A stretch of DNA of 64,000 bases from NCBI RefSeq assembly GCF_000189635.1, contig NW_002476246.1, positions 434,001 to 498,000 on the forward strand, written 5' to 3'. The stretch comes from Tetrahymena thermophila SB210 (Eukaryota > Ciliophora > Oligohymenophorea > Hymenostomatida > Tetrahymenidae). Position numbers and translations under genes: made by a program. The notes beneath the pieces were generated by a model. That model saw only the letters and a list, made by a program, of their open reading frames with translations. It was not told where the DNA came from and did not search any database. Numbering within the stretch: the first letter of the stretch is position 1; every line of letters begins with the position of its first letter. This document shows, one piece after another, positions 465-48,480 of the stretch.

Positions 465-1984
465 TATAACGCCTTTTTATTTTTAGTCATAACTTCTTAA
501 TGTAAAAAATATTCAAATCTGATAAAGCATAATAAATGATAGAAAGCAAATGCAATTTTTTATTTTTATATCATAAAATTTTTAAGAAAAATATTTTTTT
601 TTATCTAATCTTATTTATTTTAGAAATAAATTTAATCATACTATCTTCAATAAAAAAAAAGCTAAATAAAAGTTCGCAATAATATAGATCATTATTTTAT
701 TTTTCTAGAAATAAGTAATAACTAGTTAGAAACTAGTAAAAATATGGTAAACTTAATAAGACTATAAATAAATTAATATAAAATGAAAAATGGTTAATTT
801 AATATTGATTTCAAATACCTATTTCTAAAATAATTTATTAAGGCTGATTTAAAATATATGTCTAATAAAGATATTTATAATATCATACATTTATAAATAA
901 TAGAATGGTCATAGAGAATTTTGTTAATTAAATATTAAAAATTGGTTGTAAATAAAATAAATATTTGATGTCAAAAATATCTATTCGTGATTTTTAATAA
1001 AATTTGATTTTCTATTTTACAAAGATATTTCCAAAATCTAAAGGATAAATTATAAAAGAATTTTTTTAGTCTTTGATACTTTTATTAATAATATAAAATT
1101 CTTATATTAGAAATCATTGAAATAATTATTTAAAATATGGCCTTAATTTTAAGTATTAATTGCCACATATTTCTTATTTTAATTGAAATAATAATAATTC
1201 AATTAATTAAAATATAAAAAATATTTCTGTTAAGTTAGTTTGTATTTTAAAATAAATTTTATTGGATATTTTTTCTATTAAATATAAAAAATATTTTCAA
1301 ATGAATTTGCTCTTCTCAATAAATACTTAACTTATCTCTTACTCACCTAATACAGTAAAAATGAATTATATATTATTTAATACCTAATCAGGTGTACATA
1401 AGATATAAAATATATTTTTTAATACATTTATTTATTAATTTTGAATTAAAACAAGAGCAAGTAAGTGCATATTTTAAAGAATATGTCTAAAGAGCAAAAT
1501 CAGTACTTTTGGTTACTTAAATTGATTATTAGAGATGTATTTTAAAATATCCTTGTAAAATATCCCTTTTAAATCAATACTTTATATTTACTTGAATTAA
1601 TGTGGTTATGGATAAAGATTTTTATTTTGAGGTATATTTTGAATTATTACTTGAGTAAGCACCACTAATCAAAGTTGATTACTATTTCTTATTTAGTATC
1701 CATGTAAAAATAAATTAACCAGATCCAAATAACAAGAAATTGAGCTTATCTTTTTAAAAATTCAATGGTGTTAGATTTAGTTCGATTCTATTCCATATAT
1801 ATGTTTTTATTTGATATTCAAAAAGCTGATTATTTTCCTTCTTTGTGTATCTAAAAATCATATATACTTGTTTTGTTTATTATTTTAATCAAAAGTAACA
1901 AAATTCTGTCAAAAACACAAATTCAGATTAATTCAAAAAGTAACAAAGAGGAGAAATATCTCTACAAAATATTTTAGAGAAAAT
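465..1984 (+). repeat. Duplicated 5' flank of array gene 1
   Basis: This noncoding stretch has recognisable counterparts before the genes starting at 19509 (about 18126-19508) and 36813 (about 35441-36812), and partly before 27538 and 41792. Shared landmarks in order are a 17-nt hairpin at 721-737, a block near 1305-1365 ending in TCACCTAATACAGTAAAA, a block near 1655 with GAGTAAGCACCACTAAT, and a block close to the start codon (about 1895-1960). It presumably carries the promoter and 5' UTR. No coding frame is visible. Confidence 0.7.
721..737. repeat. Conserved hairpin upstream of gene 1
   Basis: ACTAGTTAGAAACTAGT forms a perfect 7-bp stem with a 3-nt loop. The same 17 nt recur at 18243-18259 and 35625-35641, each about 50 nt after a shared GCTAAATAAAAGTTCGCAA stretch and about 1.2 kb before a start codon. 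The function is unknown. Confidence 0.6.
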
Positions 1985-4900
1985 ATGATCAAAATATTTT
2001 TCTTTTTACTGTTATCATTCCTAGCAATAAATAATTTTATTGTGAAAGGTATACCAATTATTTAATTCTTAATTAAATTGTAATTCTACTTTATTTGTTA
2101 ACAAAAAATCATGGATAATTAAATATGAAAAAGAACTTTTAAATTTGAAGTGATTAAATAAATTTTATATAATTAATAGGGTTAGAAGTAGTCTACTATT
2201 AAGATTTTACTTCTGATCTTTCCTGCTCTAATCTATTTAGCTAGTATTGGTCTATAGTATCTGATTCTTATTCCGGAGGAGGTTGCTAATATTAATGTGA
2301 AAGATCAGATAATGGAAACTCAGCTGATATATTATCACCAGATATGTCTAGTTATCCTAATGGAATATAAATGATAAAATCTATTACCAAACCCTATTCA
2401 TTTTTTGGTGTTGATTTAGTTTATTTAATGAAAGATGATCCCTTAAATATGAGTATATTTGATGGAAATACTTCTTTATTCAGTTAAAATTACAGCGGGG
2501 CTAGTACAGGTACTAACGTAGAATATAATTATAGCCTATAATGTTCTATTTGGTCTGGATATATGTAAGTAAGTAAGGAAATAGTTTAACTGAATTAATC
2601 TCTCACATCAAATACTATTAAAGTGTAGTTTGTATAACATGTAACTAATGATTTTTCTTGGTATGGTGTTTTGAAGTTAAGAGCATGGGCTAACTGTGTA
2701 GAGAATTGCGATGTTTGCTAAGACAATACTAATTGCAGCAGTTGTCTTTAAGGGTTTGATAGGTATACACTACAATCAGGATAAAAAGTATGTGAATAAA
2801 CTTACAATTGCAACATAAACAACTGTTTTTCATGTATCAAAAGCTCTCCTTCTTCTCTAACAGCTACTTGTGTTAAATGCCTACCAGGTTATTCCTTAGA
2901 TGCTAACAATAATTGTATTGCAAATTCTGGAGGGGCTTGTCCTGCAAGTATATTTAAATAAAAATTTAATAGTTTTATTTTTCAATATAAAAAATATATC
3001 TGTCTTTAAATTTATCTAATTTAAACAACATTAAGAGAAAATATTTTATTAATAATAAATTTATTTTTATTACTAAATAAGACTAGTATTAATCAACGGT
3101 TTCAGGTTGCTAAACCTACAGTACTTAATGTTACATGTAAAAGCAAAATACTTACTATACTTGGTAAACTTGCCCAGGATAAGTTAATTTATCTAAATAC
3201 AAATGCTTACATTCTTAGTCTATTCTTATCTATGAACATAAAAATTATTCACTATATACATGTGGTTGTCCTGTCAATAATTGCATTTAATGTCCAAATC
3301 CAAGCTAATGCTCTTAGTGTTAATTAGGATATACTTATGATCCTGTCTCTAAAATTTGTAATTTTGTGACATGCCCTGTATTGTATTCGCGTGATCCTTA
3401 AACAGGACTATGCATTAAAAATTGTAGCGGAAATGATTGTTAGTAATGTGATTAAAATCAATAATGTACTTTATGTAACCCTTCAGATAATTATTATATA
3501 GTATAGGCAAATCCGGTCAACTGCGCTTTGTGTACAATTTAAAATTGTGCAAAATGCTCAGGAGAGGGTATTTAGTTAATTTCATTTATTTGCTAAACAC
3601 AATAAAAATAAAATTTTTTAGAACTTTAAAAATAATTTTTTTTAATTTCAATTTAATATTTAAAAATATTTATTTAAATTTTAAATTTAGGGCTTTGTTA
3701 GCAATGCTAAGCAAATTTTTCGTTAAGTTCAGACAGAACTGCTTGTATTCCTTGTAATGTCAACAATTGTAGTTAATGTGTAATTGGTTAATCTAGTTTA
3801 TGTTAGACATGCATAACTGGTTATATTTAAAGCTCTGATTAAACTACTTGTTCATGTTCTGTGTAGAATTGTTAAGCATGCAATTCTTAAGATGGTACAA
3901 TTTGTGATTTTTGTGTAAATGGTTATTTAATTAGTTTAGATAAAAAGCAGTGTTAATGCGCTGTTCCAAATTGTTTTTAGTGCAATCTTTTAAATGGCAC
4001 TAAATGCTAAACATGTATTGGCGGATATAATCTGAACCCTTTAAATAGCAAATGTTTATGTAATGTTTCTAATTGCTAAACTTGCAATTCTTCAAACGGT
4101 AATTTATGTGATAACTGCATAACAAACTATGCACCAGTAAATATATAATCTCCAACATGTACTTGCTAAGTTTACGGATGCTAAACATGCTATCCTCTTG
4201 ATGGGCTTATATGTTAAATTTGTTATTCGAATTTCATTATCTCATAAAACGGATCTTGTTTGTGTAATGTTTAGAATTGCAGCCAATGCAGTGCGACAGA
4301 TGGAAATATATGTAATACATGTGTGAATAATTACTTATTAAATTCATCTAAAACATCATGTGATTGCTAAGTAAACAGCTGTAATTAATGCGATCCAAAC
4401 AATGGAAAAATATGTATTTCTCCTAAGCCAGGTTATACCTATGATCCTATAAGCTAAACAAATAAATGTAATTTTGCCAACTGTCAAAAATGTGACCCAA
4501 ACGATGGAAGCATTTGCTTGTAATGTTAAAACGGATATAACTTTAGTTCGAATTAATGTTAGTGTAATGTTTAATTTTGCTAAAAATGTGATCCTTTAAA
4601 TGGGAATATCTGTCAATAATGCATTACTGAATATCACTTAAATCCAACTGGTTAAACTGTTTAATGCTAGCTCAATTGCAGCTTAGATAACTGCAAAGAA
4701 TGCTAAGATCCTCCAAATAATAAAACTTAGTGTAAAAGCTGTAATTCTGGATATGTATTAGATCCATCTACAAGTTAATGTGCTTTAACTTAATGCAAAG
4801 TTCCTCAGTGTAGTCAATGTTAGCAATATAAACCAAATCTATGCTAAATATGTAATGATAAATATAATTTAGATTCTGATTCTTAATGTATTTTATCAAT

Positions 4901-7119
4901 ATAGAATGATTTCTCTGTTTAGTAAACTGTCATTTAAAATGTTGGTTATAATGTCACTTTAATTTTTAAAAATTAAATAGTAGCTGATTATTAAAACTTT
5001 GACAGTTAATTAAAAATCTAAATATAAGATTATGTTAACCCTTTTTAAGTTACCATCCTTTAGGTTTAAGAATAATCAATCAAAATTTAACTAAAATTAT
5101 AAGACAATTGTAAAAATAAGAACTTGGTTGTTTAGATGAAAGATCCTAGCTTTGTTTAGATTAATAACTTAGTAGATCCACAAAAAGAAGTAAAACTTAA
5201 TGAATATGTAATTCTTTCAGAATCTTAAATTTAATAGTCATAATAAACTAAATAAGTTGCTTCTGGAACTTCTTCTTCCTTACTTATAATGGTGATACTT
5301 ATGATAGTGATAGGAAATACCTATGTTCTTTTTAGCACAATAGATTTAACAACTTTTATTTATTTTATGCTCTTTATCGATGTTAGATATCCTGATAATG
5401 TTATGTCATTTTGCTCTATATTTTAAAATTTCCAGTTTGCATTTATTCCTAACTCAATATAAGTTTATTTTATGGATCCAAATTACACTCAACCATACAC
5501 TCCCAAGAAATTCATTGATAATGGATATGATGCGTAAAATATAATTTCTAATATAAATTTATTCAAATTTTTTAAATTAAATAGATATTTTTTTAACGGA
5601 GCAGGATAATCTCTTACAACTATGGCTGGTATCATGGCGATATATGGAATTGTCAAAATTCTATCTTATATTCCAGTTACTTCTATTAGAGTATATATAA
5701 GAAGTAAAATCAAAAGTGGATGGGTATATTTTTATCAATTATATTATGTTATTTAAAAAAAATTATGAAATTTTACTAAGTTAGCTTTGACTCATTATTT
5801 ATTTTAAAAAATAGGAATTTTGTGGCTTTTTTGATATGGTTGGATGTGTGTATGTTTATTTATTAATATCTTCTCTATTATAGTTTTACAGCTTTTAATT
5901 TGATGAATCACTTGCTTTTATTAACTACACATTCTTTTCTTTAACCTTTGTATTCACTATAATCTATCCAATAATGATAACAATTTTCATAAAAAATTGT
6001 AAAAACTTAAATGACCCTTAAATTCAAATGTAATTTGGTTCAATTATAGGAGGTTTAGTGATACCTTAAAATGATTAAAATTCTGAGGAATAGAACAAAA
6101 AACAAGAAAACAACTTGAACCAATCTAATCTAAAGATGTTAAATGAAAGCAAATCTTTATAAAAAATTGAGCATGAAAAACTAACCAGATAAAAATAGTT
6201 ACAGTATAAGTGGAGTAGATATACCAATGTAATTCTTTATGCTAGAAAAATTATTTATATGATGGTTTTATTGTATTTTTATGGATAAGTATATTTATAA
6301 ATGATTATTATTAATTCTATGAATGTTTTCCTATCAATCTTTTATTTGTACCTTAAGCCATAAGAAGAAAAATCTGCTAATTTAAAAAATGGAATAAGTG
6401 AGGTGTTACTAGTAATAATGTAGGTTACAATTTGCTTCTTAGTTAAAGATGATGAAAGCTAAAGAGAGGAAGATAGATTTAACATAGGATGGATTATAGT
6501 TGGTAGTGCATCTTTAATTCTAACTATACATATTTTTAGTGTTATTGTAGATCTATTAAAAGGTATTTATAATCTTGTTAAAGATTTTATTTGCACACTA
6601 ATAAAATCAAAAGCAGAAATTGAAAAGTTAAAGTAAGAAAAACTTGCTGAGGAATAGAAAAAATAAAATAAATTTTTAAGACTTGCTTCTTAAATTTCGA
6701 TTGATAAATTAAGAAGTATGAAGAAAAAATTAAGCTTAGTTCCTTAGTCATAATTAGATATATCTATGGTATCAATATAAAGAAATTAAATCAAACAAAA
6801 ATCAATAATAGTTTAACCTAGAAATTATGAAAGCAACCATATCATAGAACTACAAAAGCAATCATAAAATTGTGACTAGTCAAATAAACTTTGCCTTAAA
6901 GACGAAGATGACTAAATTAAAAAAAATGAATAGAAAAACATTTCTTTTGAATTAAAAAACTATCAAGACCAATAAAAAATGAATTTATAAAATTCATTTA
7001 TCCACAATAATATAAATAATTAAACTACTCATAGAATACTATTTTCAGCACCGCAATCTATTAATATATCTAATAATGATTTACTAGCTGCTAAAAATCC
7101 ATCATAAGTTTTTTTATGA
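1985..7119 (+). CDS. Array gene 1: Cys-module multipass surface protein, intact
   Basis: Six exons with introns at 2049-2179, 2948-3081, 3568-3690, 5534-5584 and 5724-5814, giving 1,534 residues with TAA/TAG as Gln and TGA as stop. Residues 1-21 are a hydrophobic signal peptide. About 22-190 form a globular domain. About 190-840 contain cysteine modules of the form CxxC-x5-G-x2-CxxC-x4-Y. About 840-965 are Cys-poor and beta-like. A membrane segment near 966-990 is followed by about seven more up to about 1350, then a Lys-, Gln- and Asn-rich tail. The layout suggests a plasma-membrane receptor or adhesin, but no ligand or enzyme motif is visible. All exons after the first match the 41792-46884 copy in length, which argues for selection. 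The start is the first ATG of the signal peptide. The family is recognised by architecture only, so the function is inferred. Confidence 0.87.
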
Positions 7120-10516: not shown

Positions 10517-13500
10517 ATGAGATAAAAAAGCTATTTCTTGAATATCTTATTCTACATTATTATATGCATTAGAGGTAAATTTAACTTACTTCTTTCATTT
10601 TTTATATTTTAAATATTTAAACTAAGTTCAAGAAATATTTGCGCTTGAGAGGGTTCTCTTGAAGTATTACGATTCTTCCACAAATTGCTAAAACGAGTTA
10701 CAAACTAACTGGAATATGATTGGGGGAGGTTCTTTTCCTAACAATAACTGCTAATAAAGCTGTTCTATAAATTCAATTATATATACTGCTTTCTACTTAG
10801 TCCCGACTCAATATCCAAACGGATTTGAAATTACTAAAACCTTAGCAAGCACAGCTTCCATATTAGGTTTTGATTTAGCTTATTTTGTATCTGGATAATT
10901 TACTGTTTCAATATATGGAGATAATAAATTACTATACTAATAATCATATTAGCAAATAGTCTAAAATAATTTTCCTTAAGAAATAATATACAACGGTGTC
11001 AATTGCTAAGGCTCAAGTTTTAGAACAATTTTTGTTAGCAAATACGTCAAAACATAGAATATTTCTAAATATTATTTACAGTTCTCTAACTTGCCTTCTA
11101 ACTATGGTTTTTTCAAAATCTATATGTGGTCAAATTGCGTTTTAAATTGTGATTAATGCAAAGATTCCTAAAATTGCTAAGTTTGTTTATAAGGTTTTTC
11201 ATTGATGATTATGCCTTCTGGTTAACAAGTATGTTCTTAATAAGAGGATTGCTAATCAAGTAATTGTTTGGAATGTGCTATTAGTGGAATAACCGAAGTA
11301 TGCATATTATGCATACCTGGCTATAAACTAAATAGTTCTAATATTTGTGTTTCAACTGGTTTAGCTTGCAGTGCAGGTATATTTAGTTATTAAAATATAT
11401 TTTATTTTAAATTTGCAATTTAAAGAGCATATTAAATAGTTTAAATAAATTAACCAACAGAAATAATAAGCTATTTTTATAACTCAAATATTATCAGCTA
11501 TTTCTAACATTAATGAATAAAAAATAATTAATGTAATCTTCTATTTATTTATTATAAATTCTGATGGTTTTTAAAAAAATTAAAACAATAACTATTACTT
11601 AAAAAATAAATAATACAAATAATATTATAAAATATTCTAATATCATAATTTTGTAAATATAAATTTTAAATTAATTGATAAAAAATTTTTGATTTTCTGA
11701 TTATTTTCTTTTTAATGAATGATAACTATTTTTTAATCTAACAAAAATAATTTTAAAGCTTTCAATTAAAAAAATGATATTAAGTTAGGTTAAAACTAGC
11801 ATTTTTGTTAATTTATAAATAAATGATCTTTGCTTGTGAGTAGCGCAAATTATAAAAAATGCTTAGTATAATCCTATTTTATTTTTAAAAATTTTAAATA
11901 AAATATTTTTTTTTTACCTTTTATTTTGTAAATAAATAATAAGCATATTTATTTTAATAGGATAATATAGAAGTGAATAAAACACTTGTGAAACATATAC
12001 AAGTAATTGTCTTAGATAAAATACATCTGAAACTACTTGGTTATAATGCTTTGCTGTACCAGATTAAACAACATTTAAATGCTTCTAAAATAAAGTAATT
12101 CTATTATATTAAAGAGGAAACTATAGTGCAAGAGTTTGCGGGTGCAATCATTTACCAAATTGCAATTAATGCAATACAAATACTTGCACTTAATGTAAAC
12201 AAGGGTATTCTTTTAGTGGATCAACATGTGTTGCATCTACATGCCCCATAGGGTCATAGATGAACCCTATTACAAAAGCATGCTCTAGTATAATATGCTC
12301 TGATACATATTGCCTTAAATGTGACCAATTTGTTTGCTAATAATGTTTAGGTAGTTCATATTATGTGTCAGCAACAAATCCTCTTCAATGTAAATATTGC
12401 AATGTTCAAAATTGCAAGTAATGCAATCCTGATGGTAATTTTTAATTAACTTTATAAATGATTTTATATCACTAATTTTAGAAATCATCAAATTATTAGT
12501 TTATTAAATTTAAAAAAAAATAATTTTATGGAAAATAAAATAATGGAAATTAGTTCTAAAATAAATCAAATTTTAATTTAAATGTTTACTTAAATTTTTT
12601 GTTTTAGAGATATTAATTTTACTTAAATAATCATTTTTAAATTAGGAACTTGTAAAACTTGTAATCCAACATACTTTATGAACGGTTCAGGAAACTGCAT
12701 AAGCTGTGCTTAAAATTGTCTTTTATGCAATGATCCATCAATTTGTTAACAATGTGTTACCGGTTACGTTTTAAGTAATGATAAAACTACTTGCATTTGC
12801 TCTATCCCTTAATGCTTTTTGTGTAATCCAAATGATGGAACTATTTGTTCAATTTGCAATAATGGAATATTTGATTCATTATCAAAAACATGTAAATGTA
12901 CATTAACAAACTGTTAAACATGTCTTCCTTAAAGTAATACATAATGTTTAGCTTGTAAAGGTGTGTTTATCTTAGATTAGAATAATTAATGTTAATGTCC
13001 TATAAAAAATTGCTAATAATGTGATTCTTCAGGAAGCAAATGCTTAACTTGCGCCACTAACTATATTTTAAGCTCTGATTCTACTTTATGTTAATGCTCT
13101 GTATAATACTGCTCTTTATGTTCAAGTAACAATTGTCTAATATGCACATAAGGCTATACTTTAGTTGGAAACTAATGCATTATGAAAGCCTAAAATTGTA
13201 TCAAACCTGATCCAACGAATGGTATGAATTGCTTATAATGTGTATCTGGTTATTTGGTTGTCTTAGATGATCAATATAATAATACATGCTAATGTAATGT
13301 TTAAAATTGCAAGTAATGTTAGGCTTCTAATGGTAATTTATGTGATCAGTGCTATACTAATTATTAATTAAATAATGATAAGACTTAATGTTTATGTTCT
13401 GTTTAAAATTGCCTTTTTTGCAACTTAAATGATGGAAATTATTGTGATTTATGCAATACTGGTTATTAAAATTTAAATTCAGGTAAAATTTGTTAATGTT

Positions 13501-16500
13501 AAGTCTCCAACTGTTTAAACTGTAACCCTTAAAATGGAAAAATTTGTAATCAATGCTAAGTTAACTATTAAGCTAGTGCTGATTAATCAAAATGTACATG
13601 TTAAGTTAATAATTGTCAAAATTGCAATCCTATCGATGGATCTCTTTGTGATAGTTGTGTTGTAGGATATATTCCTTAAAATAGTAAACATAATTGCTAT
13701 TGTGGTGTAAGTAATTGCTAGATTTGCAATTTATCTAATGGAAATATATGTAATTAATGTACAAATAATTATATAAATAGTAGTGATTAAACTTAATGCA
13801 ATTGCTAAGTTTCTAATTGCAAAAATTGCAACATAACTGATGGGTCAATCTGTGATACTTGCATTACTGGATATATACTTACAAATAATAATAAATCTTG
13901 CCAATGCTCAGTAGCGAATTGTTAGGTCTGTAATCCTTCTGATGGATCATTATGTAATCAGTGCTCAAAAAACTTTATTTTAAGCTCAGATTCTAAATAA
14001 TGTAAATGTTCTGTTTAAAATTGTTAAGTATGTAATTCAAATGATGGTTATATTTGTGATACATGTGTTAATGGCTATTACCCTACCAATAATAATACAA
14101 TTTGTTCATGTAGCGTAAATAATTGTTTGGTTTGTAATACGTTAAATGGTAACTTTTGTGATTAATGTTAACCTAACTTTTAGCTAAGTGTAGATAAGAA
14201 ATCATGCATTTGTTAAGCTTAATATTGCTATTAATGTTCTCTTTTTGATGGAAATATCTGTGGAATGTGTTATTCTGGATTCTATAATAACAACGGATAG
14301 TGTTAATGTAGTGTAGATAATTGCCTTGAATGCAATCCAACTTCCGGAAAATCTTGTATTTAGTGTTAAACTAATTATCTTTTAAGTTTTGATTAACTAA
14401 AATGTTAATGTTAGGTAAGTAATTGTTAAATCTGCAATCCAAATGATGGATCTTTATGTGATACTTGTGTGATAGGGTACATTCCATAGAATAATAATAA
14501 ACTTTGTTCATGCAGCGTCGATAATTGCTAAAATTGTAACCCTTCAAATGGTAGTTTGTGCCATCAATGCAAATATAATTATATTATGAAAAGTGACTTT
14601 ACTTAATGTAATTGCTCTGTTGCTGGTTGTTAAAAATGTAATTATAGCGATGGTTCTATTTGTGATACATGTATTACTGGATATATTCCTTCTAATGATA
14701 ATAAATCTTGTTAATGCTCAGTTGCAAACTGCTAGATATGTGATTCAACAAATGGATTCATCTGTAAATAATGTTTATAAAATTATTCTTTAAGTAGTGA
14801 TAAAACATAATGTAATTGTTCTGTATCTAATTGTTAATCATGCAAATCAAGCGATGGATCTATTTGCAATTTTTGCACAAATGGGTATATTCCTTCAAAT
14901 GACAATAAGGTTTGTTAATGCGGTATGGCTAATTGTTTGGAATGTAATCCTTTAAATGGGTAAATTTGTAACAAATGCCAATAAAATTTTAAGTTAAATG
15001 GTGATTCTTCATAATGCTAATGTATAATCCCTAATTGTTAATAATGTAATTCCAGTGATGGATCTATTTGTAATACATGTGGTTAAGGATATACCACATC
15101 AAAAGATAATAAAACTTGTAAATGTATTAGCTAAAATTGTCTATCTTGCGATCCTTAAAATGGTAATCTGTGTCTAAAGTGTTAACAGAATTATACATTG
15201 AATTAGAATTAATAATGCGTTTGCTAGGTTTCTAACTGCAAAAATTGTAATGTTAATGATGGATAAATTTGTGATTCTTGTGATCAAGGATTTATTCCTA
15301 TTAATAATAATAAGGCATGCTAGTGTGGAATTTAAAATTGCTTAAAATGTAATCCCTAAAATGGAAATGTATGTCAATAGTGTTAGGCCAATTATGCCTT
15401 AAGTTCTAATTCAACATAATGTATTTGCTCAGTTCTTAATTGTCTTAGCTGCAATGTTAATGATGGTTCTATTTGTGATATTTGTTTAGCAGGTTTTGCT
15501 CCTCAAAATAATAATAAGGTATGTTAACCTCAAATTAAAAATTGTTTAGCAACAGATCCTTAAAATAATACAAAATGCATTAAATGTCAGCTAAATTATA
15601 TTTTGAGTGAAGATTAGACTTAATGCAATTGTTCTGTTTTAAACTGCTAAAATTGCAACTCTGGTAATGGTTCAATTTGTGATTCTTGCTAATATGGTTA
15701 TATTTCTTTAAATAATAATTCAGTTTGCTCTTGCCCTAAAGATTCAACAACATGTATTACTTAGTGCAAAGTTTAAAAATGTAAATAGTGTTCAGCAAAT
15801 AATTTAGATAAATGTGAAACTTGTGAAAAAAATTACTACCTAGATAACAATTTATTGTGCATACTATCTATGTAAAATGACTTTATTGTAGATTAAAAAG
15901 TTGTAGAAAATATTGGTTATAATATAACAATAAAATTTTAAAATGAGATTATAGCAACTACTGATAATGTGAATGGGTTACTCAGTATTTAAATAGTTGA
16001 TTACAACAATCCTTTTAAAGTTGAAATAGTAGATATCTAAATTAAATAAATAAAGATTTAAATTTATATGGAAGGTAATTGCAAAAATAAAAATTTAATT
16101 GTTAAAATGAATGACCTATAATTTGTCTAAGTAAACAATTTGTAAGAATAATAAAAATAAGTTTAATTGAACGATTATGTGGTATTAACAAAGAGCCAAA
16201 TATAATAATCTTAAACAACAAAGCAAGCAGCTTCTAAAACTTCATCAACTCTCTTTATAGTGATGGTTTTAATGACAGTAATTGGAAATACTTATGTTTT
16301 ATTTAGCACAATAGACTTAACTACCTTTATTTACTTCATGCTCTTTGTTGATGTTAGGTATCCTGAAAATGTTATGTCATTTTGCTCTATATTTTAAAAT
16401 TTTTAATTTGCATTTGTCCCTAATACCATACAAATTTATTTAATGGATGCTAATTATACATAACCATACACTCCTTAGAAATTTATTGATAACGGATATG

Positions 16501-18063: not shown

Positions 18064-18125
18064 CAAAATTAATAAAATATGTATTTTATTATTTGCTTTT
18101 TTTATTTTTGCATATTAAAATTATT

Positions 18126-34226: not shown

Positions 34227-35181
34227 ATTGTGTTTCTTCCTAATGGATATATTTTTTTAAATAATAATTAAGTTTGCTCTTGTCCTAGCACGTTAAAGAT
34301 TAACAACATGTATAACTCAATGCAAAGTTTAAAAGTATAAATAATTTTTAGCAAATAATTTAGATAAATGCGAAAATTGTGAAAATAATTACAACCTAGA
34401 TAATTATTTATATTTTACATATTTTTAGGTTATTTTAAATAGCTTAATGATCGTATTCATAACATTTTATTATTTTTATATGAAACCATAAGAAGACAAG
34501 AATACTAATATTAAAAATTGTCTATTAGTAGAGGATGATTAGACTTAGGATGAATAACATAGATTTAATGCTGATTGGGTAATTATAGAATCAGCTTTTG
34601 CTATTTTAATTATTCATATTTTAAGTGTAATTATCAATCTACTGAAAAGTATAACTAATTTAGTTAAAGACTTTATTTGCACATTATTTAAATCAAAAAA
34701 AAGAGTTAGAAAAAATATATAAATAAATTAGGAGATATTAATTAATCAAAGTATAAAACTATAGATGTTGCTTCTCAATATCTTTAGAAAAAATCAGAAG
34801 TATCTAAAAAAATTTTAGTTCAATTATATCTTAAAAAGGATCAACTTCTAGGTTCTCATTATCACAATTAAAAAGGTAGATAGCCTAAAGAATTAACCTA
34901 CGATATATCCTTCAATAAAAATAAATATTTTTAACCAATTATATTAGAACTAAAAAATAAAAATAATTTAAATTTACAAGAATTAAGCTTAAATGATAAA
35001 GATTAGAATGATCTTAAAAAATAAATTCATTTTAGTATTAAAAATAAGATATATTATATAGTTTATCATATAACTAATTATAAAGTTAATATTAACATCT
35101 AAGTAATAGATTTTTAAACTAAAATGCTTAATTACTAATTATATGTTATCCCATAAAGATTATTTTATACAATTAGTATAA
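34227..35181 (+). pseudogene. Relic of a gene-2-like copy
   Basis: The first about 180 bp match the last cysteine modules of gene 2 (about 15690-15860). After a junction near 34408 the sequence matches the last third of gene 2 (about 17230-18063), so about 1.4 kb with two introns has been deleted. The module part is frameshifted (an inserted stretch near 34290 breaks the frame), further small deletions follow, and the original stop TGA has become TAA at 35179-35181. It lies between a type-1 gene and the next 5' flank, exactly as gene 2 does, so it marks a duplicated gene block. Not expected to make protein. Confidence 0.82.
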
Positions 35182-35440
35182 CAAAATAAATAAAATATGT
35201 AATTTATTATTTGCCTTTTGTAAAACAATTTTTATTTTAGAATCTAAAAATGCATTTATTTAGAATTTTTATTTTTGCAATAAAATAAAGCTAGTTGAAT
35301 GAAATCAAGTAATCTATTTTTGAAAATATCTAACCTGCTCTTATGAAGACAGGATAGTTTATTTCCTCTTTAAGTGAAATATTTTTTAATACTTGATATT
35401 ACACTTTTCAATTCTTTTTAATCTAAACATTTCTCTTTAA

Positions 35441-36812: not shown

Positions 36813-39800
36813 ATGATCAAATAATTTTTCTTTTTATTTGTCTTATTTCTAACAACTATTGACCGTTTTATTGTGAGAGGTTTACCTATTATTTTATTTT
36901 TCATTAAATATCGTTCTACTTTTTTTTGTTTAACATAAAATATATGGAAGTTAAATATTAAAAAAGCTATTAAATTTTATTTTAATAAATAGGGTTAGAA
37001 GTGGTCTACTATTAAGATTTTACTCCTATTCTTTCCTGCTCTAATCTTTTTAGCTAGTATTTGTCTATAGTTTCTGGTTCTTTTTCTGGTGGAAGTTGCT
37101 AATATTAATGCTAGAGATCAGATAACGGAAATCATGCTGACATATTTTCAACAAATATGTCTAATTATCCTAGCGGATTCTAAATGATAAAATCAATTAC
37201 AAAACCTTATTCTTTTTTTGGTGTTAATTTAGTTTATTTAGTGAAAGATGACCCCTTGAATATGAATATATTTGATGGAAATACTTCTTTGTTCAGTTAA
37301 AATTATAGCGGCGGTAGTACAGGTACGAATGTGGAATATAATTATAGACTAAAATGTTCTTTTTGGTCTGGAAATTTGTAAGTAAGTAAGGAAACAGTTT
37401 AATTAAATTAATATCTAGCATCAGACACTATAAAATTGTAGTTTAAATAACATGTAACTAGTGATTTTTCTTGGTATGGTGTTTTGAAGTTAAGGGCATG
37501 GGCTAATTGTGTTGAGAATTGTAATATTTGCTTAGACAATACGAACTGCAGCAGCTGTCTTTAAGGGTTTGATAGGTATACACTATAATCAGGATAAAAA
37601 GTATGTGAATAAACTTAAGATTGCAACATAACAAATTGTTTTTCATGTATCAAAAGTCCTGCTTCTTCTCTAACATTTACTTGTGTTAAATGTCTACCAG
37701 GTTATTCATTAGATACTAACAAAAATTGTATTGCAAATACTGGAGGAGATTGTCCTGCAAGTACATTTAAATTATAATTTAATAGTTTAAAAATACTAAT
37801 ATTATTCAATATAAAATATAATTCTATGTTTAAATTTAATTATCAAATTGAAATAATTTTAAATAAAAATATTTTTTTAATAATAATTTTATTTTTATTA
37901 CTTAATTAGACTAGTATTAATCAATGGTTTAAGGTTGCTAAGCCTATAGTAGTTAATGTTTTTTGTAAAAGTAAAATACTTACTTTACTTGGTTACCTTG
38001 TCCTGGATAAGTAAATTTATCTTAATACAAATGCTTAAATTTTTAGTCTATTCTTATCTATGAACATAAAAATTATTCTCTTTATACATGTGGCTGCCCT
38101 GTAAATAATTGCATTTAATGTCCAAATCCAAGCTAATGCTCTTAGTGTTAATTAGGATATACTTATGATCCTATCTCTTTAACTTGTACTTTTGTGATAT
38201 GCCCTGTATTATATTCCCACGATCCTTAAACTGGTCTATGTAGTAAAAATTGCAGCGGAAATGACTGTTAGTAATGTGATTAAAATCAATAATGTACTTT
38301 ATGTAATCCTACAGGTAATTTTTATATAGAAACCGCAAATCCAGTCAATTGCGCTTTGTGTACAATTTAAAATTGCTCAAGCTGCTCAGGAGAAGGTATT
38401 TAATTATTTTATTTATTTACTAAACTCAAAAAAATAAAATTTTTCGAGTTTTAAAAAATAATATTTTTTATTAAAAGTTTAAATTTAAAAATATATTTAT
38501 TTAATTTTGAAATTTAGGACTTTGTTAGCAATGCTAAAACTATTTTTCCTTAAGTTTAGACAGAACTGCTTGTAATCCTTGTAATGTCAAAAATTGTAGT
38601 TAATGTGTAATTGGTTAACCTAGTTTATGTTAGACATGTATAGCTGGTTATATTTAAAGCTCTGATAAAACTACTTGTTCATGTTCTGTGTAAAATTGTT
38701 AAACATGCAATTCTTAAGATGGTACAATTTGTGATTTTTGTGTAAATGGATATTTAATTAGTTTAGACAAAAAGTAGTGTTCATGTGTTGTTCCTAATTG
38801 TTCTCAGTGTAATCTTTTAGATGGTACTTAATGCTAAACTTGAGTTAGTGGATATAATTTGAACCTTTTAAATAGTAAATGCTTATGTAACGTTTCTAAT
38901 TGCTAAACTTGCAATTCTTCAAATGGTAATTTATGTGATAGTTGCATAACTAATTATTCACCAGTAGGTATCTAATCGCTAATTTGTACCTGCTAAGTTT
39001 ATGGATGCTAAACTTGCACTCCTCTGAATAGGCTCATGTGTTAAATTTGTTATTCGAATTTCATTATTTCATAAAGTGGATCTTGCTTATGTAATGTTTA
39101 GAATTGCAGCCAATGTAGTGCAACAGATGGAAATACATGTAATACATGTATGAATAATTACTTATTAAATTCTTCTAAAACATCATGAGATTGCTAAGTA
39201 AACAGCTGTAATTAATGTGATTAAAACAATGGAAAAATATGTATATCTCCTAAGCCAGGTTATACTTATGATCCTATAAGTTAAACAAATAAATGTAATT
39301 TTGCAAACTGTAAAAGATGTGACCCAAACGATGGAAAAATTTGTTTGTAATGTTAAAATGGATATAACTTCAGTTTAAACTAATGTTAGTGCAATGTTTA
39401 ATATTGTTAAAAATGTGATCCTTTAAATGGGAGTACATGTCAATAATGCATTACTGAATATCACTTTAATCCAACTGGTTAAACTGTTTACTGCTAGCTG
39501 AATTGCAACTTAGATAACTGCAAAGAATGTTAAGATCCTCCAAATAATAAAACTTAATGTAAAAGCTGTAATTCTGGATATGTATTAGATCCATCTACAA
39601 ATTAGTGTGTTTCAACTTAATGCAAAGTTCCTCAGTGTAGTCAATGCTAACCATATAAACCAAATCTATGCTAAACATGTAATGATAAATATAATTTAAA
39701 TTATGATTCTCAATGTATTTTATCAATAAAGAATGATTTTTCTGTTTAGTAAACCGTGATTTAAAATGTTGGCTATAATATCACTTTAATTTTTAAAAAT

Positions 39801-40958
39801 TAAATAGTTATGGAAGATTAAAATTTTGACAGTTAATTAAACATTTGCAAAAACTTAAATAACTCAAAAATTCAAATGTAATTCGGATCAATTATAGGAG
39901 GTTTAGTGCTACCTTAAAATGACCAATATTCTGATGTATATAACAAAAAATAAGAAAACAACTTGAAAGAATTTAATTTAAAGACTTCAAATGAAAACAA
40001 ATATTTACAAAAAATTGAATATGAAAAACTAACAAGATAAAAGTAGTTACAGTATAAGTGGAGTAGATATACAAATGTAATTCTTTATGGTAGAAAAATT
40101 ATTTACATGACGGTTTTATTGTATTTATATGGATAAGTATACTTTTAAATGGTTATTATTAATTCTATGAATATTTTCCTATCAATATATTATCTATACA
40201 TTAAGCCATAAGAAGAAAAATCTGCTAATATAAAAAATGGAATAAGTGAGGTGTTACTAGTAATAATGCAGGTTACAATTTGTTTCTTAGTTAAAGATGA
40301 TGAAAGTTAAAGAGAAGAAGATAGATTTAATATAGGATGGATTATAGTTGGTAGTGCATCTTTAATTTTAACTATACATATTTTTAGTGTTGTTGTAGAT
40401 CTATTAAAAGGCATTTATAATCTTGTTAAAGATTTTATTTGCACACTGATAAAACCAAAAGCAGAGATAGAAAGTTTAAAATAAGAAAAATTCGTTGAGG
40501 AATAGAATAAATAAAATAAATTTTTAAGACTAACTTCTTAAATTTCGGTTGATAAATTAAGATTTATGAAAAAGAAATTAAGCTTAGTTCCTTAGTCATA
40601 ATTAGATATATCTATGGTATCAATATAAAGACATTAAATAAAATAAAAATAAATAATAGTTTAGCCTAAAAATAATGAAAGCAACCATATCATAGAACTA
40701 CAAAAACAATCAGAAAATTGTGACTTGTTATATAAACAAACCCTTAAAGACGAAGAAAATTAAATAAAAAAAAATGATAATTCTTTTTGATTAAAAAACT
40801 CTCCATTCCATTAAAAAATCAATTAATAAATTTCATTTATACACAATAACATAAATAATTAGACTATAAATAAAATACTATTTTCAACACCATGATTTAT
40901 TAATATATCAAATAATTATATTCTAGCTGCTAAAAATAGATCATAAGTATTTTTATGA
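36813..40958 (+). pseudogene. Array gene 5: broken by two nonsense codons and a deletion
   Basis: Introns at 36880-36992, 37761-37909 and 38396-38517 and exons 1-3 follow the family pattern, with one extra codon in exon 1. In exon 4 two conserved Cys codons (TGT in the paralogues) read TGA, at 38841-38843 and 39186-39188, so the product would stop after 548 residues. Near 39840 about 1.0 kb is missing relative to gene 6. The loss removes the beta-like domain, the first membrane segments, introns 4 and 5 and exon 5, and joins the remains of exons 4 and 6 in frame. The tail near 40770 has lost more bases. The gene is dead as a membrane protein. A short secreted N-terminal product cannot be excluded. 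Confidence 0.87.
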
Positions 40959-41157
40959 AAGTATTGTTCATATTTTAAAAAAATCTTGTATTTTCTAAAG
41001 AATGTTTTAAAATAAAAAGAAAAATTTTTTTCAATTAATTTATTTAAATTCGATAAACACATATTTTTTTTATAAAGTTACTCATTTATTTCAAAATAAA
41101 TATTAATCAACTTTATATGAAATATTGAAAAATAATATAAATCAAAAAATTTAGAGT
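40959..41157. other. 3' flank of gene 5, no gene
   Basis: AT-rich DNA that resembles the sequence after the relic at 47223-48480 (shared TATAAAGTWACTCATTTATT). The next duplicated block starts abruptly at 41158. Confidence 0.5.
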
Positions 41158-44100
41158 TAATATAGTAAAAATTAAATTATATATTATTTAATAAATAATT
41201 TGGTGTATATGTGATATAAAATATATTTATAATGCATTTATTTAATAATTTTGAATTAAAGCAAATATCAGAAAGTGCGTATTTTAAGTAATATGACATA
41301 AGGGTAAAATCAGTACTTGGTTACTCAAATTTGTTATCAGAGATGAACTTAAAATAATCCTTGTAAAATATCTTTTTAAATCAATACTTTAAATTTACTT
41401 GAAAAAATGTAGAAGGCATAAATATTTTTATTTTTAAGTATATCATGAATTATAACTTGAGTAAGCACAACTAATCAAAATTAATTATTATTCCTTATTT
41501 AATATCTTTGTAAAAATAAATTAATCAGATTCAAATATCAAGGAGTTGAGATTATCTTTTAAAAAATTCAATGGTGTTGTGTTTAGTTTGATTATATTCC
41601 ATATATATGTTTTTATATGGTATTCAAAAGACTGATTTATTTCGTTATTTGTGTATCTAAAAACTATTTGTATTTGATTTATCTATATATTATTTTTTTT
41701 AAAAGTAACAAAATTTTGTCAAAAACAAAATTCAGATTAATTCAAAAAGTAAATAGAGAGGAATATTATTTAAGTATATTTTAGCTAAAAAATGATGTAA
41801 TAATTTTTCTTTCTACTTGTCTTATTCCTAGCAATTAATGGTATTATTGTGAGAGGTATATCTATTACTTTATTTTTCATTAAATGATCATTCTACTTTT
41901 TTTTGTTTAACATAAAATACGTAGAAGTTAAATATTAAAAAAGCTATTAATTTTATTTTAATAAATAGGGTTAGAAGTGATCTACTATTAAGATTTTACT
42001 CCTAGTCTTTCCTGCTCTAATATTTTTAGCTAGTATTGGTCATTAGTTTCTGGTTCTTTTTCTGGTGGAACTTGCCAATATTAATGTTCGAGAACAGATA
42101 ATGGAATTCATATTGACATATTATCACCAGATATGTCTAGTGATCCTAAAGGATTCTAACTGATAAAATCAATCACATAACCTTATTCTTTTTTTGGTGT
42201 TGATTTAGTTTATTTAGTGAAAGATGACTTCTTAAATATGTCTATATTTGATGGAAATACTTCTTTGTTCAGTTAATACTATAGTGGCGCAAATACAGGT
42301 ACGAGTTTGGAATATAATTATAAACTAAAATGTTCTTTTTGGTCTGGAAATTTGTAAGTAAGTAAGGAAACAGTTTAATTGAATTAATATCTAGCATCAG
42401 ACTAGATAAAAGTGAAGTTCGTATAACATGTAATTAGTGATTCTTCATGGTATGGTGTTTTAAAGTTAAGAACATGGGCTAATTGTGTAGAAAATTGCGA
42501 TATTTGCTTAAACAGTACTAATTGCAGCAGTTGTCTTTAAGGGTTTGATAGGTATACACTACAATCAGGATAAAAAGTATGTGAATAAACTTAAGATTGC
42601 AACATAAACAATTGCTTTTCATGTATCAAAAGCTCTCTTTCTTCACAAACAGCTACTTGTGTTAAATGTCTACCAGGTTATTCCTTAGATGCTAACAAAA
42701 ATTGTATTGCAAATCCTGGAAGGGCTTGTCTTGCATGTAAATTTAAACTTTAATTTAATGGTTTAAAATAAATAGTATTCAATATAAAATATAAATCTAT
42801 GTTTAAATTTAATAATTAAATTGAAATTAAAACTTTTGTAAATAATAATATTATTTTTATAATTAAATTAGACTAATATTAATCAACATTTTCATTTTGC
42901 TAAGCCTACAGTACTAAATGTTATATGTAAAAGTAAAATACTTACTATAAGTGGTAAATTTGTCCTGGATAAGTAAATTTATCTTAATACAAATGCTTAA
43001 ATTCTTAGACTATTCTTATCTATGAACATAAAAATTATTCTCTTTATACATGTGGTTGCCCTGTAAATAATTGCATTTAATGTCCAAATCCAAGCTAATG
43101 CTCTTAGTGCTAATTAGGATATACTTATGATCCTATCTCTTATACTTGTACTTTTGTGATGTGCCCTCTATTGTATTCACGTGATCCTTAAACAGGCCTA
43201 TGCAGTAAAAATTGCAGCGGAAATGACTGTTAGTAATGTGATTAAAATCAATAATGTACTTTGTGTAACCCTACAGGTAATTATTATATAGTAACCGCAA
43301 ATCCGGTAAATTGCGCTTTGTGTACAATTTAAAACTGCTTAAGCTGCTCAGGAGAAGGTATTTAGTTAATTTAATATATTTTCTAAATCCAATAAAAATA
43401 ATTTTTTTTATAAAATTTAATTTTAAAAAATATTTATTTAAATATGAATTTTAGGACTTTGTTAGCAATGCTAAAATCATTTTTCTTTAAGTTCAGACAG
43501 AACTTCTTGTTATCCTTGTAATGTAGACAATTGTAGTTAATGTGTAATTGGTTAACCTAGTTTATGTTAGACATGCATAAATGGTTATATATAAAGCATT
43601 GATTAAACTACTTGTTCATGCTCTGTGTAAAATTGTTAAGCATGCAATTCTTAAGATGGTACAATTTGTGATTTTTGTGTAAATGGGTATCTAATTAGCT
43701 TAGACAAAAAGTAGTGTTCATGTGCTATTCCAAATTGTTCTCAGTGTAATCTTTTAGATGGTACTTAATGCTAAACTTGTGTTAGTGGATATAATCTGAA
43801 CCCTATAAATAGTAAATGTTTATGTAATGTTTCTAATTGCTAAACTTGTAATTCTTTAAATGGTAATTTATGCGATAGCTGCATAACAAACTATGCACCA
43901 GTAGGTATCTAATCGCCAATTTGTACTTGCTAAGTTTATGGATGCTAAACGTGCACTCCTCTTAATGGGCTCATGTGTTAAATTTGTTATTCAAATTTCA
44001 TAATTTCATAAAGTGGATCTTGCTTATGTAATGTTTAGAATTGCAGCCAATGTAGTGCAACAGATGGAAATATATGTAATACATGTGTGAATAATTACTT

Positions 44101-47100
44101 ATTAAATTCTTCTAGAACATCATGTGATTGCTAAGTAAACAGCTGTAATTAATGCGATCCAAACAATGGAAAAATATGTATTTCTCCTAAGCCAGGTTAT
44201 ACCTATGATCCTATAAGTTAAACAAATAAATGTAATTTTGCAAATTGTAAAAGATGTGACCCAAACAATGGAAACATTTGCTTGTAATGTTAAAATGGAT
44301 ATAACTTTAGTTCGAACTAATGTTAGTGCAATGTTTAATATTGTTAAAAATGTGATCCTTTAGATGGGAGTACATGTCAATAATGCATTACTGAATATCA
44401 CTTTAATCTAATTGGTTAAACTGTTTAATGCTAGCTCAATTGCAGCTTAGACAACTGCAAAGAATGTTAAGACCCTCCAAATAATAAAACTTAATGTAAA
44501 AGCTGTAATTCTGGATATGTATTAGATCCATCTACAAATTAGTGTGTTTCAACTTAATGCAAAGTTCTTCAGTGTAGTCAATGTTAACCATATAAGCCAA
44601 ATCTATGCTAAACATGTAATGATAAATATAATTTAGATTCTGATTCTTAATGTATTTTATCAATATAGAATGATTTCTCTGTTTAGTAAACTGTCATTTA
44701 AAATGTAGGATATAATGTTACTTTACTTTTTAAAAATTAAATAGTTATGGAAGATTAAAATTTTGATAGTTAATTAAAAATCTAAATATAAGATTATGCA
44801 AACCCTTTTTAAGTTACTATCCTATAGGTTTAGGAAAAATCAATAAAAATTTAATTAAAATTATAAGAAAATTGTAAAAATAAGAACTTGGTAGTTTAGA
44901 TGAAAGATCATAGCTTTGTGTAGATTAATAACTTAGTCGATCCACAAAAAGAAGTAAAACTTAATGAATATGTAGTTCTTTCAGAATCTTAAATTTAATA
45001 GTCTTAACAGACTAAATAAGTTGCTTCTGGAGCTTCCTCTTCCTTACTTATAATGATGATACTTATGATAGTGATAGGAAATACCTATGTTCTTTTTAGT
45101 ACAATAGATTTAACAACTTTTATTTATTTTATGCTCTTTATTGATGTTAGATATCCTGATAATGTTATGTCATTTTGTTCTATATTTTAAAATTTCCAGT
45201 TTGCTTTCATTCCAAACGCAATATAAGTTTATTTAATGGATTCTAATTATACTCAACCGTACACTCCCAAGAAATTCATTGATAATGGATATGATGCGTA
45301 AAATATCATTTTTCAAATAAATTTGTTTAAATATTTTTAATTAAATAGATATTTTTTTAATGGAGCAGGATAATCTCTTACAACTATGGCTGGTATCATA
45401 GCAATATATGGAGTTATCAAAATTCTATCTTATATTCCTATAACTTCTATAAGAGTATATATAAGAAATAAAATCAAAAGTGGATGGGTATATTTTTATC
45501 AATTATTTTAAGTTATTTAAAAAAGTTATGAAATTTTACTAAGCTAGTTTTGACTTATTTTTTATTTAAAAAAAATTAGGAATTTTGTGGCTTTTTTGAT
45601 ATGGTTGGATGTGTGTATGTTTATTTATTAATATCTTCTTTATTATAGTTTTACAGTTTTTAATTTGATGAATCACTTACTTTTATTAACTATACACTCT
45701 TTTCTTTAACCTTTGCATTCACTATTATCTACCCAATAATGATAACAATTTTCATAAAAAAATGCAAAAACTTAAATGACCCATAAATTCAAATGTAATT
45801 TGGATCAATTATAGGAGGTTTAGTGATACCTTAAAATGATCAAAATTCTGAGGAATAGAACAAAAAACAAGAAAACAACTTGAACCAATCTAATCTAAAG
45901 ACATTTAATGAAAACAAATCTTTATAAAAAATTGAAAATGAAAAACTAGCAAGATAAAAACAGTTACAGTATAAGTGGAGTAGATATACAAATGTAATTC
46001 TTTATGCTAGAAAAATTATTTACATGATTGTTTTATTATATTTTTATGGATAAGTATACTTATAAATGATTATTATTAATTCTATGAATGTTTTCCTATC
46101 AATCTTTTATTTGTACCTTAAGCCATAAGAAGAAAAATCTGCTAATATAAAAAATGGAATAAGTGAGGTATTACTAGTAATAATGCAGGTTACAATTTGC
46201 TTCTTAGTTAAAGATGATGAAAGTTAAAGAGAGGAAGATAGATTTAACATAGGATGGATTATAGTTGGTAGTGCATCTTTAATTTTAACTATACATATTT
46301 TTAGTGTTATTTTAGATCTATTAAAAGGTATTTATAATCTTGTTAAAGATTTTATTTGCACACTCATAAAACCAAAAGCAGAGATCGAAAACTTAAAATA
46401 AGAAAAACTCGCTTAGGAATAGAATAAATAAAATAAATTTTTAAGACTAGCTTCTTAAATTTCGATTGATAAATTAAGAAGTATAAAAAAGAAATTAAGC
46501 TTAGTTCCTTAGTCATAATTAGATATATCTAAGGTATCTATATAAAGACATTAAACCAAATAAAAATAAATAATAGTTTAGCCTAAAAATAATGAAAGCA
46601 ACCATATCATAGAACTACAAAAGCAATCAGAAAATTATGGCTAGTCAAATAAGCATTCCCTTAAAGACATAGAAAACTAAATTAAAAAAAATGAATAGAA
46701 AAACTCTTCTTTTGAATTAAAAAACTCTCCAGACCATGAAAAAATGAATTTATAAAATTCATTTATCCACAATAACATAAATAATTAGACTACTCATAGA
46801 ATACTATTTTCAGCACCTCAATCTATTAATATATCTAATAATGATTTATTATCAGCTAAAAATCCATCATAAGTATTATTATGAAAGTAATTGTTCATAT
46901 TTTTTAAAAATATTGTATTTTCTAAGAATGTTTTAAAATAAAAAAAATAATTTTTCAATTAATTTATATTTATAAATTTATTTATCTGGTAAATTATGGA
47001 ATTAGTTAAGGCAAATATAGTCATAAAGCAATATTCTATATCAATTCACTCTATTAAATAAAATAAAAAAATATAAAATACTTATAAAAATAAAAACTAA

Positions 47101-47208
47101 AATATTTTATTCATCACTTATCTATTTTCAATATAATATATAAAAGACAATTCTTTTTAATTTAGCATTACATATGATTGATTAAATCTTAAATTTAATA
47201 ATTTATTA
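41158..47208. repeat. Segmental duplication, copy B (paired with 26904-33970)
   Basis: Includes about 630 bp of 5' flank, gene 6 and about 320 bp of 3' flank, nearly identical to copy A. The flank copy starts later than in genes 1, 3 and 5, so gene 6 has the shortest shared promoter region. Confidence 0.8.
41792..46884 (+). CDS. Array gene 6: Cys-module multipass surface protein, intact
   Basis: Introns at 41856-41968, 42737-42871, 43358-43454, 45298-45348 and 45488-45579. Every exon has the same length as in gene 1 (64, 768, 486, 1843, 139 and 1305 nt), giving 1,534 residues and TGA at 46882-46884. Signal peptide MMQQFFFLLVLFLAINGI, N-terminal domain, Cys modules with a single 504-bp unit, beta-like domain, about eight membrane segments and Gln/Asn-rich tail are present without breaks. 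The second in-frame acceptor of intron 2 (an AG in the other copies) reads TT here, so only the upstream acceptor at 42871 can be used. This independently supports that splice site. It is the intact sister of the frameshifted gene at 27538. Likely a surface receptor or adhesin. Confidence 0.87.
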
Positions 47209-47222
47209 TTTAAAAAAATTAG

Positions 47223-48480
47223 GAATTTTGTGGTTTTTTTGATATGATTGGATGTGTGTATGTTTATTTATTATTATCTTCTCTATTATAGTTTTACAGA
47301 TTTTAATTTGATGAATCACTTGCTTTTATTAACTACACACTCTTTTCTATAACCTTTTTATTCACTATAATATATCCAATAATGTTAACAATTTTCATAA
47401 AAAATTGCAAAAACTTAAATGACCCATAAATTCAAATGTAATTTGGATCAATTATAGGAGGTTTAGTGATACCTTAAAATGATCAAAATTCTAAATAATA
47501 GAATAAAAAGTAAGAAAATAAAATAAACGAATCTAATCTAAAGACTTCAAATGAAAAAAAATTTTTATAAAAAATTGAGCATGAAAAAGTAACCAGATAA
47601 AAATAGTTACAGTATAAGTGGAGTAGATATACCAATGTAATTATTTATGCTAGAAAAATTATTTACATGATGGTTTTATTGTATTTTTATGGATAAGTAT
47701 ACTTTTAAATGGTTATTATTAATTCTATGAATATTTTCCTATCAATTTATTATCTATACATTAAGCCTTAAGAAGAAAAATCTGCTAATATAAAAAATGG
47801 AATAAGTGAGGTGTTACTAGTAATAATGCAGGTTACAATTTGCTTCTTAGTTAAAGATGATGAAAGTTAAAGAGAGGAAAATAGATTTAACATAGGATGG
47901 ATTATAGTTGGTAGTGCATCTTTAATTTTAAGTATACATATTTTTAGTGTTGTTGTAGATCTATTAAAAGGTATTTATAATCTTGTTAAAGATTTTATTT
48001 GCACACTCATAAAACCAAAAGCCGAGATTGAAAAGTTAAAATAAGAAAAACTCGCAGAGGAATAGAATAAATAAAATAAATTTTTCATACTAACTTCTTA
48101 AATTTCGGTTGATAAATTAAGATTTATGAAGAAGAAATTAAGTCTAGTTCCTTAGTCATAATTAGATATATCTATGGTATCAATATAAAGACATTAAATT
48201 AAATAAAAATAAATATTAGTTTAGCCTAAAAATAATGAAAGCAACCATATCATAGAACTACATAAGCAATCAGAAAATTGTGACTTGTTAAATAAACATA
48301 CCATTAAAGACGAAGAAAACTAAATAAAAAAAATGAATATAAAATTCATTTATACACAATAACATAAATAATTAGACTATAAATAGAATACTATTTTCAG
48401 CATCAAAATCTATTAATATATCAAATAATTATATACTAGCTTCTAAAAATTGATCATAAGTATTTTTATGAAAGTATTGG
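47223..48480 (+). pseudogene. 3' fragment of an array gene (last exon only)
   Basis: Begins with the tail of intron 5 and its AG, then exon 6 from EFCGFFDMIGCVYVYLL onward, with no upstream exons, signal peptide or cysteine modules. Most of the exon is open, but a deletion near 48325-48345 shifts the frame, and a TGA at 48451-48453 replaces a serine or arginine codon of the paralogues. Sequence and downstream DNA are closest to the 3' end of gene 5. It sits at the end of the 41158-47208 duplication, so it is probably a by-product of that event. Confidence 0.82.

Follow-up and report, generated by a model that had tools for sequence, protein, structure and literature searches.

The window analysed here, 64 kb of Tetrahymena thermophila SB210 (contig NW_002476246.1, hereafter C262, positions 434001–498000), contains an array of large genes for predicted cysteine-rich multipass membrane proteins. 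On balance, we favour reading it as a tandemly arranged family of large, receptor-like membrane proteins shaped by birth-and-death evolution, with a sensor architecture like that of the CRMPs and the mating-type proteins. Birth and death in this tandem membrane-protein family is supported by a common exon plan, graded decay of the copies, in-frame gain or loss of blocks and purifying selection in the open copies. Tandem expansion of genes of the GFR Cys-rich class in Tetrahymena is already published as a category, of which the array is a further example: GFR is one of seven domain classes that dominate species-specific Tetrahymena genes, and such genes are often tandem (PMC6564038; this and the other published systems are described here from excerpts of the cited papers). 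That report stays at the level of the category, and the excerpt does not describe this array; nor was a paper on it found in the literature searched, the coverage of which leaves out most subscription journals. As it stands, the array is a well-resolved case of birth and death in a class of families known to be expanding. New here are a putative ancestral unit of a type-2 and a type-1 gene, a 168-residue block present once or three times, and two candidate conversion tracts.

A TERT exon of the genome to which the window belongs agrees with PDB chain 6d6v_A (T. thermophila TERT) throughout the two exonic stretches aligned, an intron and the frame ends aside; judged by its 101 Mb, the genome is probably the macronuclear one. 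Translation table 11 yields a single stop-to-stop open reading frame (ORF) of at least 120 aa in the 64 kb, and the ciliate code (table 6, in which TAA and TAG are Gln) yields many long ones. Gene models were built by aligning the copies, from GT..AG sites and homology, without transcripts. Coordinates are window positions unless a contig is named. The eight array elements in the window comprise four open copies (A, B, C and F), two broken copies (D and E) and two relics. The six gene copies all run in the same direction, head to tail along the + strand, and five of them (all except E) have six exons with introns in phases 1, 1, 1, 2 and 0. Chance is excluded as the source of this arrangement because 300-nt blocks recur up to nine times at 88–97% identity. 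Behind an upstream type-2 gene, the order is A (type 1), B (type 2), C and D (type 1), a type-2 relic, E and F (type 1) and a type-1 relic:

606..1984 (+): 5' flank of copy A, part of the duplicated unit, 74–82% identical to the C, D, E and F flanks
1985..7119 (+): copy A, type 1, open, 6 exons, 1542 aa, 16 CxxC modules, one 504-bp unit
10517..18063 (+): copy B, type 2, open, 6 exons, 2197 aa, 35 modules
10517–10574, 10627–11376, 11961–12434, 12646–16504, 16555–16693, 16750–18063 (+): exons of copy B
19509..25593 (+): copy C, type 1, open, 1883 aa, 24 modules, three 504-bp units
21534..23045 (+): the three in-frame 504-bp (168-aa) units of copy C
27538..33634 (+): copy D, type 1, one 4-base deletion in exon 4, otherwise open, three units
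34228..35275 (+): relic, type 2 (B-like), parts of exons 4 and 6 and 3' flank, 80–83% identical to B
36813..40958 (+): copy E, type 1 pseudogene, four in-frame TGAs, 962-bp internal deletion
41792..46884 (+): copy F, type 1, open, 1542 aa, 16 modules, one unit
47201..48568 (+): relic, type 1, exon 6 and adjoining sequence only, 87–88% identical to A, C, D and F

A preliminary description of this DNA had counted four intact copies, one frameshifted, one nonsense-bearing and two relics in head-to-tail order, and had seen in them every stage of birth and death; both statements agree with the present models. In copy D, the 4-base deletion (at about 31424) is the sole gap of exon 4 relative to C, and it accounts for the later stops. 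Copy E is more degraded. Besides the normal stop it has two in-frame TGAs in exon 4 and two in the tail. Its deletion, at 39845, removes the first five transmembrane (TM) segments, TM1–TM5, while translation stays in frame across it; exons 1–3 are retained, exon 5 is lost, and exons 4 and 6 are partial. Both TGAs in exon 4 of E (38518–39845) occupy positions that are Cys in other copies; a selenocysteine reading was considered and dropped on account of the tail TGAs and the large deletion. The relic at 34228, formerly assigned to the A type, is of the B type, its identity to the upstream type-2 gene being 75–78%.

A, D and F share exon lengths of 64/768/486/exon 4/163/1305; exon 4 itself measures 1843 bp in A and F, 2851 in C and 2847 in D. 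The corresponding lengths in copy B are 58/750/474/3859/139/1314. Copy C follows the type-1 plan apart from exon 5: it lacks the GT donor of intron 5 (24252) that the other copies share, and the exon is therefore modelled as 178; the frame is kept by retention or by a nearby GT, and the intron may be retained since it contains no in-frame stop. The claim that type-1 exon lengths are conserved to the base holds for A, D and F, exon 4 aside; C departs from it in the modelled exon 5, and E in exon 1, which measures 67, in the lost exon 5 and in the partial exons 4 and 6.

The proposed variation in ectodomain length is borne out, with 16 to 35 modules per protein and exon 4 of A, E and F shorter than that of C by exactly 1008 bp, or two 504-bp units. 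A 168-residue block is present either once or three times, in frame, among the copies. An additional open type-1 gene, copy H on contig C110 (176970–183039, 1879 aa), also has three 504-bp units and an exon 4 without gap relative to C; a fragment of the same family adjoins it (C110:174505–183039). In a tree of 12 units from six genes, units group within genes (C1 with C2 and D1 with D2 at bootstrap 100, H1–H3 at 84), indicating that they were gained or homogenised within genes. Deeper nodes of the IQ-TREE phylogeny are unsupported (16–40), and FastTree joins the C and D pairs (0.90) while IQ-TREE does not, so that an ancestral number of one, two or three units would be compatible with the unit trees. 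Copy F is overall closest to D, yet it has one unit and D has three. A Sawyer-type run test, which presumes even constraint along the gene, was applied to A, C, D, F and H with their flanks, which together offer 1331 variable sites, and corrected for ten pairs. Two tracts were significant after correction. In the D–F tract (41261–41979, +), comprising three runs, the 5' flank, exon 1 and intron 1 of F are nearly identical to those of D, which may reflect recent duplication, conversion or local constraint. The C–F tract (42472–42633, +), identical at 25 consecutive variable sites, is a candidate for gene conversion.

The open type-1 copies are under purifying selection, loosest in the N-terminal domain and the tail. 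The ratio of nonsynonymous to synonymous divergence (dN/dS, omega), estimated by the Nei–Gojobori method with codon bootstrap over the six pairs that A, C, F and H form, is 0.31 (0.27–0.36). By domain, omega is 0.62 (0.17–1.89) in the signal segment, 0.51 (0.33–0.78) in the N-terminal domain, 0.26 (0.20–0.33) in the Cys modules, 0.20 (0.11–0.33) in the juxtamembrane domain, 0.22 (0.13–0.37) in the block named TM1-4, which contains the first five segments of a nine-segment reading, 0.31 (0.13–0.70) in the loop, 0.35 (0.16–0.73) in the later TM block and 0.48 (0.32–0.77) in the tail. The N-terminal value exceeded that of the Cys modules in 99.5% of bootstraps. Intron distances (0.18–0.29; D–F 0.04) are similar to synonymous distances (dS, 0.14–0.26; D–F 0.075), indicating that dS is near neutral. 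The preliminary description had named neutral dN/dS in the intact copies as an observation that would count against it; the pairwise values among A, C, F and H, 0.26–0.36, are not neutral, but the changes private to F do fit neutrality.

Private changes were counted at the codons present in all six type-1 genes, with a neutral synonymous fraction of 0.204. Those of A, C, D, E and H depart from neutrality towards constraint (p 1e-14 to 0.024, uncorrected; the value for H would not survive correction for six tests). Those of F, 8 synonymous to 28 nonsynonymous, fit neutral drift (p 0.84), so that this copy may already be decaying. This result, together with the broken state of four of the eight window elements (D, E and the two relics), is what would be expected if the expansion were in decay and largely redundant, only one or two copies still having a specific function. 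We consider this unlikely, given the constraint on the private changes of the other five type-1 genes and the fact that B is open over 2197 aa. Between D and F, the N-terminal domain differs by 3 synonymous and 23 nonsynonymous changes, 0 and 17 of which, respectively, fall on the F branch (Fisher p 0.0007 against the rest of that branch), a hint of relaxation or accelerated change. Positive selection is not claimed, because the comparison was chosen post hoc among many combinations of pairs and domains, the D–F pair alone is compatible with neutrality (p 0.34) and the candidate C–F conversion tract overlaps this domain.

Flanking sequences bear on how the copies arose. The segment before A matches the flanks of C, D and E over 1.2–1.4 kb and that of F over about 660 bp. 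Before A, C and E, this duplicated flank comes after a type-2 gene or relic, and the segment before B matches that before the upstream type-2 gene (72%). Judging from the flanks and a tree of the membrane domain, without outgroup species, the simplest reading is that the ancestral duplication unit was a type-2 and type-1 gene pair. For D and F, this would mean either loss of the type-2 neighbour or an origin by copying of type 1 alone. Such a pair would have been copied by unequal crossing-over and then eroded through loss of type-2 members.

The array is larger than the span 465..48480 first given for it; relatives continue upstream on C262 to about 306 kb. A tblastn search of C262:300001–508000 revealed eight further relatives upstream of the window, six on the + and two on the - strand, at these approximate positions:

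C262 306–311 kb (+): relative
C262 316–322 kb (-): relative
C262 379–385 kb (+): relative
C262 390–396 kb (+): relative
C262 400–406 kb (+): relative
C262 407–413 kb (-): relative
C262 415–422 kb (+): relative
C262 426–434 kb (+): relative

The relatives at 407–413 kb and 415–422 kb are distant and form a divergent head-to-head pair, unlike the window copies. Genome searches with the membrane domain gave hits (E 0.001 or better, merged by position) at a minimum of 56 loci on 20 contigs, ten of which carry two or more loci; this count is a lower bound, and several loci are short fragments or relics. Further clusters with matches to the family or to PF06011 occur on contigs C174, C169, C71, C338 and C288 and on C262 near 1.13–1.17 Mb, which suggests that genes combining an ectodomain with a multipass domain form several arrays. 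A tree of the membrane domain, built from 21 of the 56 loci, places neighbours together in several parts (three loci at C262 383–404 kb, two on C125, two on C71, and H with the type-1 copies), a pattern expected under local birth and death.

All five proteins examined (A, B, C, F and H) have an N-terminal hydrophobic segment, 16–35 modules of the CxxC..CxxC pattern and, by Kyte–Doolittle hydropathy, a multipass domain, in which nine segments follow the signal segment when overlapping windows are merged by eye. The signal segment is encoded by exon 1, and the N-terminal domain with the first Cys modules by exon 2. The modules continue through exon 3 and the greater part of exon 4, the end of which specifies the juxtamembrane domain and the first of the hydrophobic segments; the remaining segments and the tail come from exons 5 and 6. 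The tail is long and hydrophilic, with no terminal hydrophobic signal (assessed by hydropathy, not by a predictor of glycosylphosphatidylinositol (GPI) anchors). Signal segment, Cys modules and hydrophobic segments together suggest a surface receptor or adhesin. From this anatomy, the N-terminal domain and a rod of 16–35 modules would lie outside the cell, carried by a membrane domain of about nine segments, and the tail would be cytoplasmic.

The preliminary description went further and saw in the array the pattern of variable surface repertoires. Taken in the sense of switched expression, one copy at a time would cover the cell surface in the manner of the Ser antigens. Ser antigens differ in the pattern of their Cys blocks and are not known to have a multipass domain. 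The array does share with the Ser genes Cys-rich repeats and a tandem, mostly same-orientation arrangement, and its length variation and candidate conversion tracts would suit such a system; however, Ser proteins are GPI-anchored (PMC4136848), whereas about nine hydrophobic segments, followed by a long hydrophilic tail, are seen in the window family. Moreover, selection is conserving overall and not diversifying, the decayed copies resemble ordinary pseudogenes, and no silent cassettes were seen, although no search was aimed at them. A switched repertoire therefore seems to us quite improbable. The ectodomain of copy C is also CxxC-rich like that of the Giardia VSPs and gave a Pfam VSP match below the cut-off (E 0.0056). 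Giardia VSPs have one TM segment and a fixed tail.

The CRMPs (cysteine repeat modular proteins: Tetrahymena CRMP1/2, Toxoplasma CRMPa/b and Plasmodium CRMP1-4) combine, like the array proteins, a signal peptide, a Cys-repeat ectodomain and a C-terminal multipass domain. Nine TM segments are described for the Toxoplasma and Plasmodium members, whereas five are predicted for those of Tetrahymena, in which CRMP1 and CRMP2 are required for mucocyst discharge (PMC9670195, PMC9815656). The about nine segments of the array proteins match the apicomplexan members; unlike the CRMPs, the array is a large tandem family. The mating-type proteins MTA and MTB and their partner in this comparison, MRC1, are likewise large; a GFR domain rich in Cys and five TM helices, the latter by prediction, are described for them (PMC3608545, PMC10901506), and the array proteins are similarly large, Cys-rich (GFR/furin-like) and multipass. 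The array proteins are built like the CRMPs and MTA, MTB and MRC1 and may work like them, and we do not claim them as members of either group. They would then act as contact or ligand sensors that vary in rod length and in the N-terminal domain. Our best single guess, and a tentative one, is a sensing role like that of the CRMPs. That the array encodes mating or self/non-self recognition proteins actually related to MTA, MTB and MRC1 appears unlikely: the shared design, the divergent pair upstream (C262 407–413 kb/415–422 kb) and ORFs in the right flank that are beta-helix-like and multipass, reminiscent of MRC2, would fit, but MTA and MTB form a head-to-head pair, whereas all window copies are on the + strand. 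MTA and MTB further differ in having five predicted TM helices and programmed rearrangement. A more specific proposal, which we regard as speculative, is that the array belongs to a repertoire of CRMP-like contact sensors with nine segments. Neighbouring genes of type 2 and type 1 would be inherited together as a pair and might encode heteromeric partners, like CRMPa/CRMPb or MTA/MTB; sensor reach would be tuned by gain or loss of the 168-residue rod segment, and recognition would change in the N-terminal domain.

Several observations weigh against a birth-and-death family of CRMP- or mating-type-like sensors, in addition to the private changes of copy F, which fit neutral drift. The C262 relatives at 309, 316, 408 and 420 kb form deep separate branches, in which deep relatives from the same contig are not grouped, indicating that the contig also holds old lineages. 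Automatic segment counts vary from 8 to 11 after the signal segment, and the likeness to the CRMPs and to the mating proteins is one of layout as described. A Pfam scan, which covered pieces of A, B and C and of diverged paralogues and left D, E and F aside, gave no domain above the cut-off in the family pieces, including no Kringle, MAR or GAIN/GPS match. GAIN is reported for Tetrahymena CRMP1/2 by HHpred (PMC9670195, PMC9815656). In the 241-aa juxtamembrane region of C, no GPS/GAIN match was obtained with Pfam, a less sensitive method than HHpred, at E 1, and the only hit was M60-like_N below the cut-off (E 0.033). Weak matches of the TRP-type domain PF06011 (fungal TRP/flavin carrier) in two of four diverged paralogues, those on C37 (E 2.3e-4) and C71 (E 0.0059), count on the favourable side, but the best score, 20.6 bits, is below the gathering cut-off of 28.5, and neither of the exon-6 ORFs of B and C matched it at E 0.1. 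A CitMHS match in the membrane part of B (E 4e-4) was set aside as below the cut-off and probably a generic membrane match. PDB sequence searches with the exon-4 ORF of C and with a six-sequence profile found nothing. AlphaFold models of the N-terminal domain and of the membrane part, run with six window sequences each, had a mean predicted local distance difference test score (pLDDT) of 37.9 and 36.3, a very low confidence at which the models are unusable and no fold is claimed. Profile–profile comparison with the beta-helix/multipass family of contig C176 gave a probability of 2.1% (E 0.023), which is not evidence of homology.

If the array proteins are CRMP- or mating-type-like sensors, a single contig would offer matched natural variants (one or three rod units, fresh and old pseudogenes, paired type-1 and type-2 genes), and the roles of rod length and of the N-terminal domain in contact sensing would become testable in a tractable ciliate.

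A second tandem family adjoins the array on the right, at 48818–54095 (-) and 61447–63998 (-). Its ORFs 48821–50833 and 61450–63432 are 91% identical to each other and 27–28% identical (E 1e-28 and 2e-26) to a multipass ORF on C176, a locus that exceeds the PF06011 cut-off. ORF 51351–54095 contains a Chlamydia PMP-type repeat above the cut-off (E 3.7e-6). The combination of this repeat with multipass ORFs recalls MRC2 of the mating complex. Between A and B lies an ORF of 384 aa with a weak BED zinc finger just under the cut-off (E 0.0018), possibly derived from a transposon. The positions of this ORF and of a tRNA gene are as follows:

8438–9592 (+): ORF with weak BED zinc finger
59766–59836 (-): tRNA-Gly (gcc) gene

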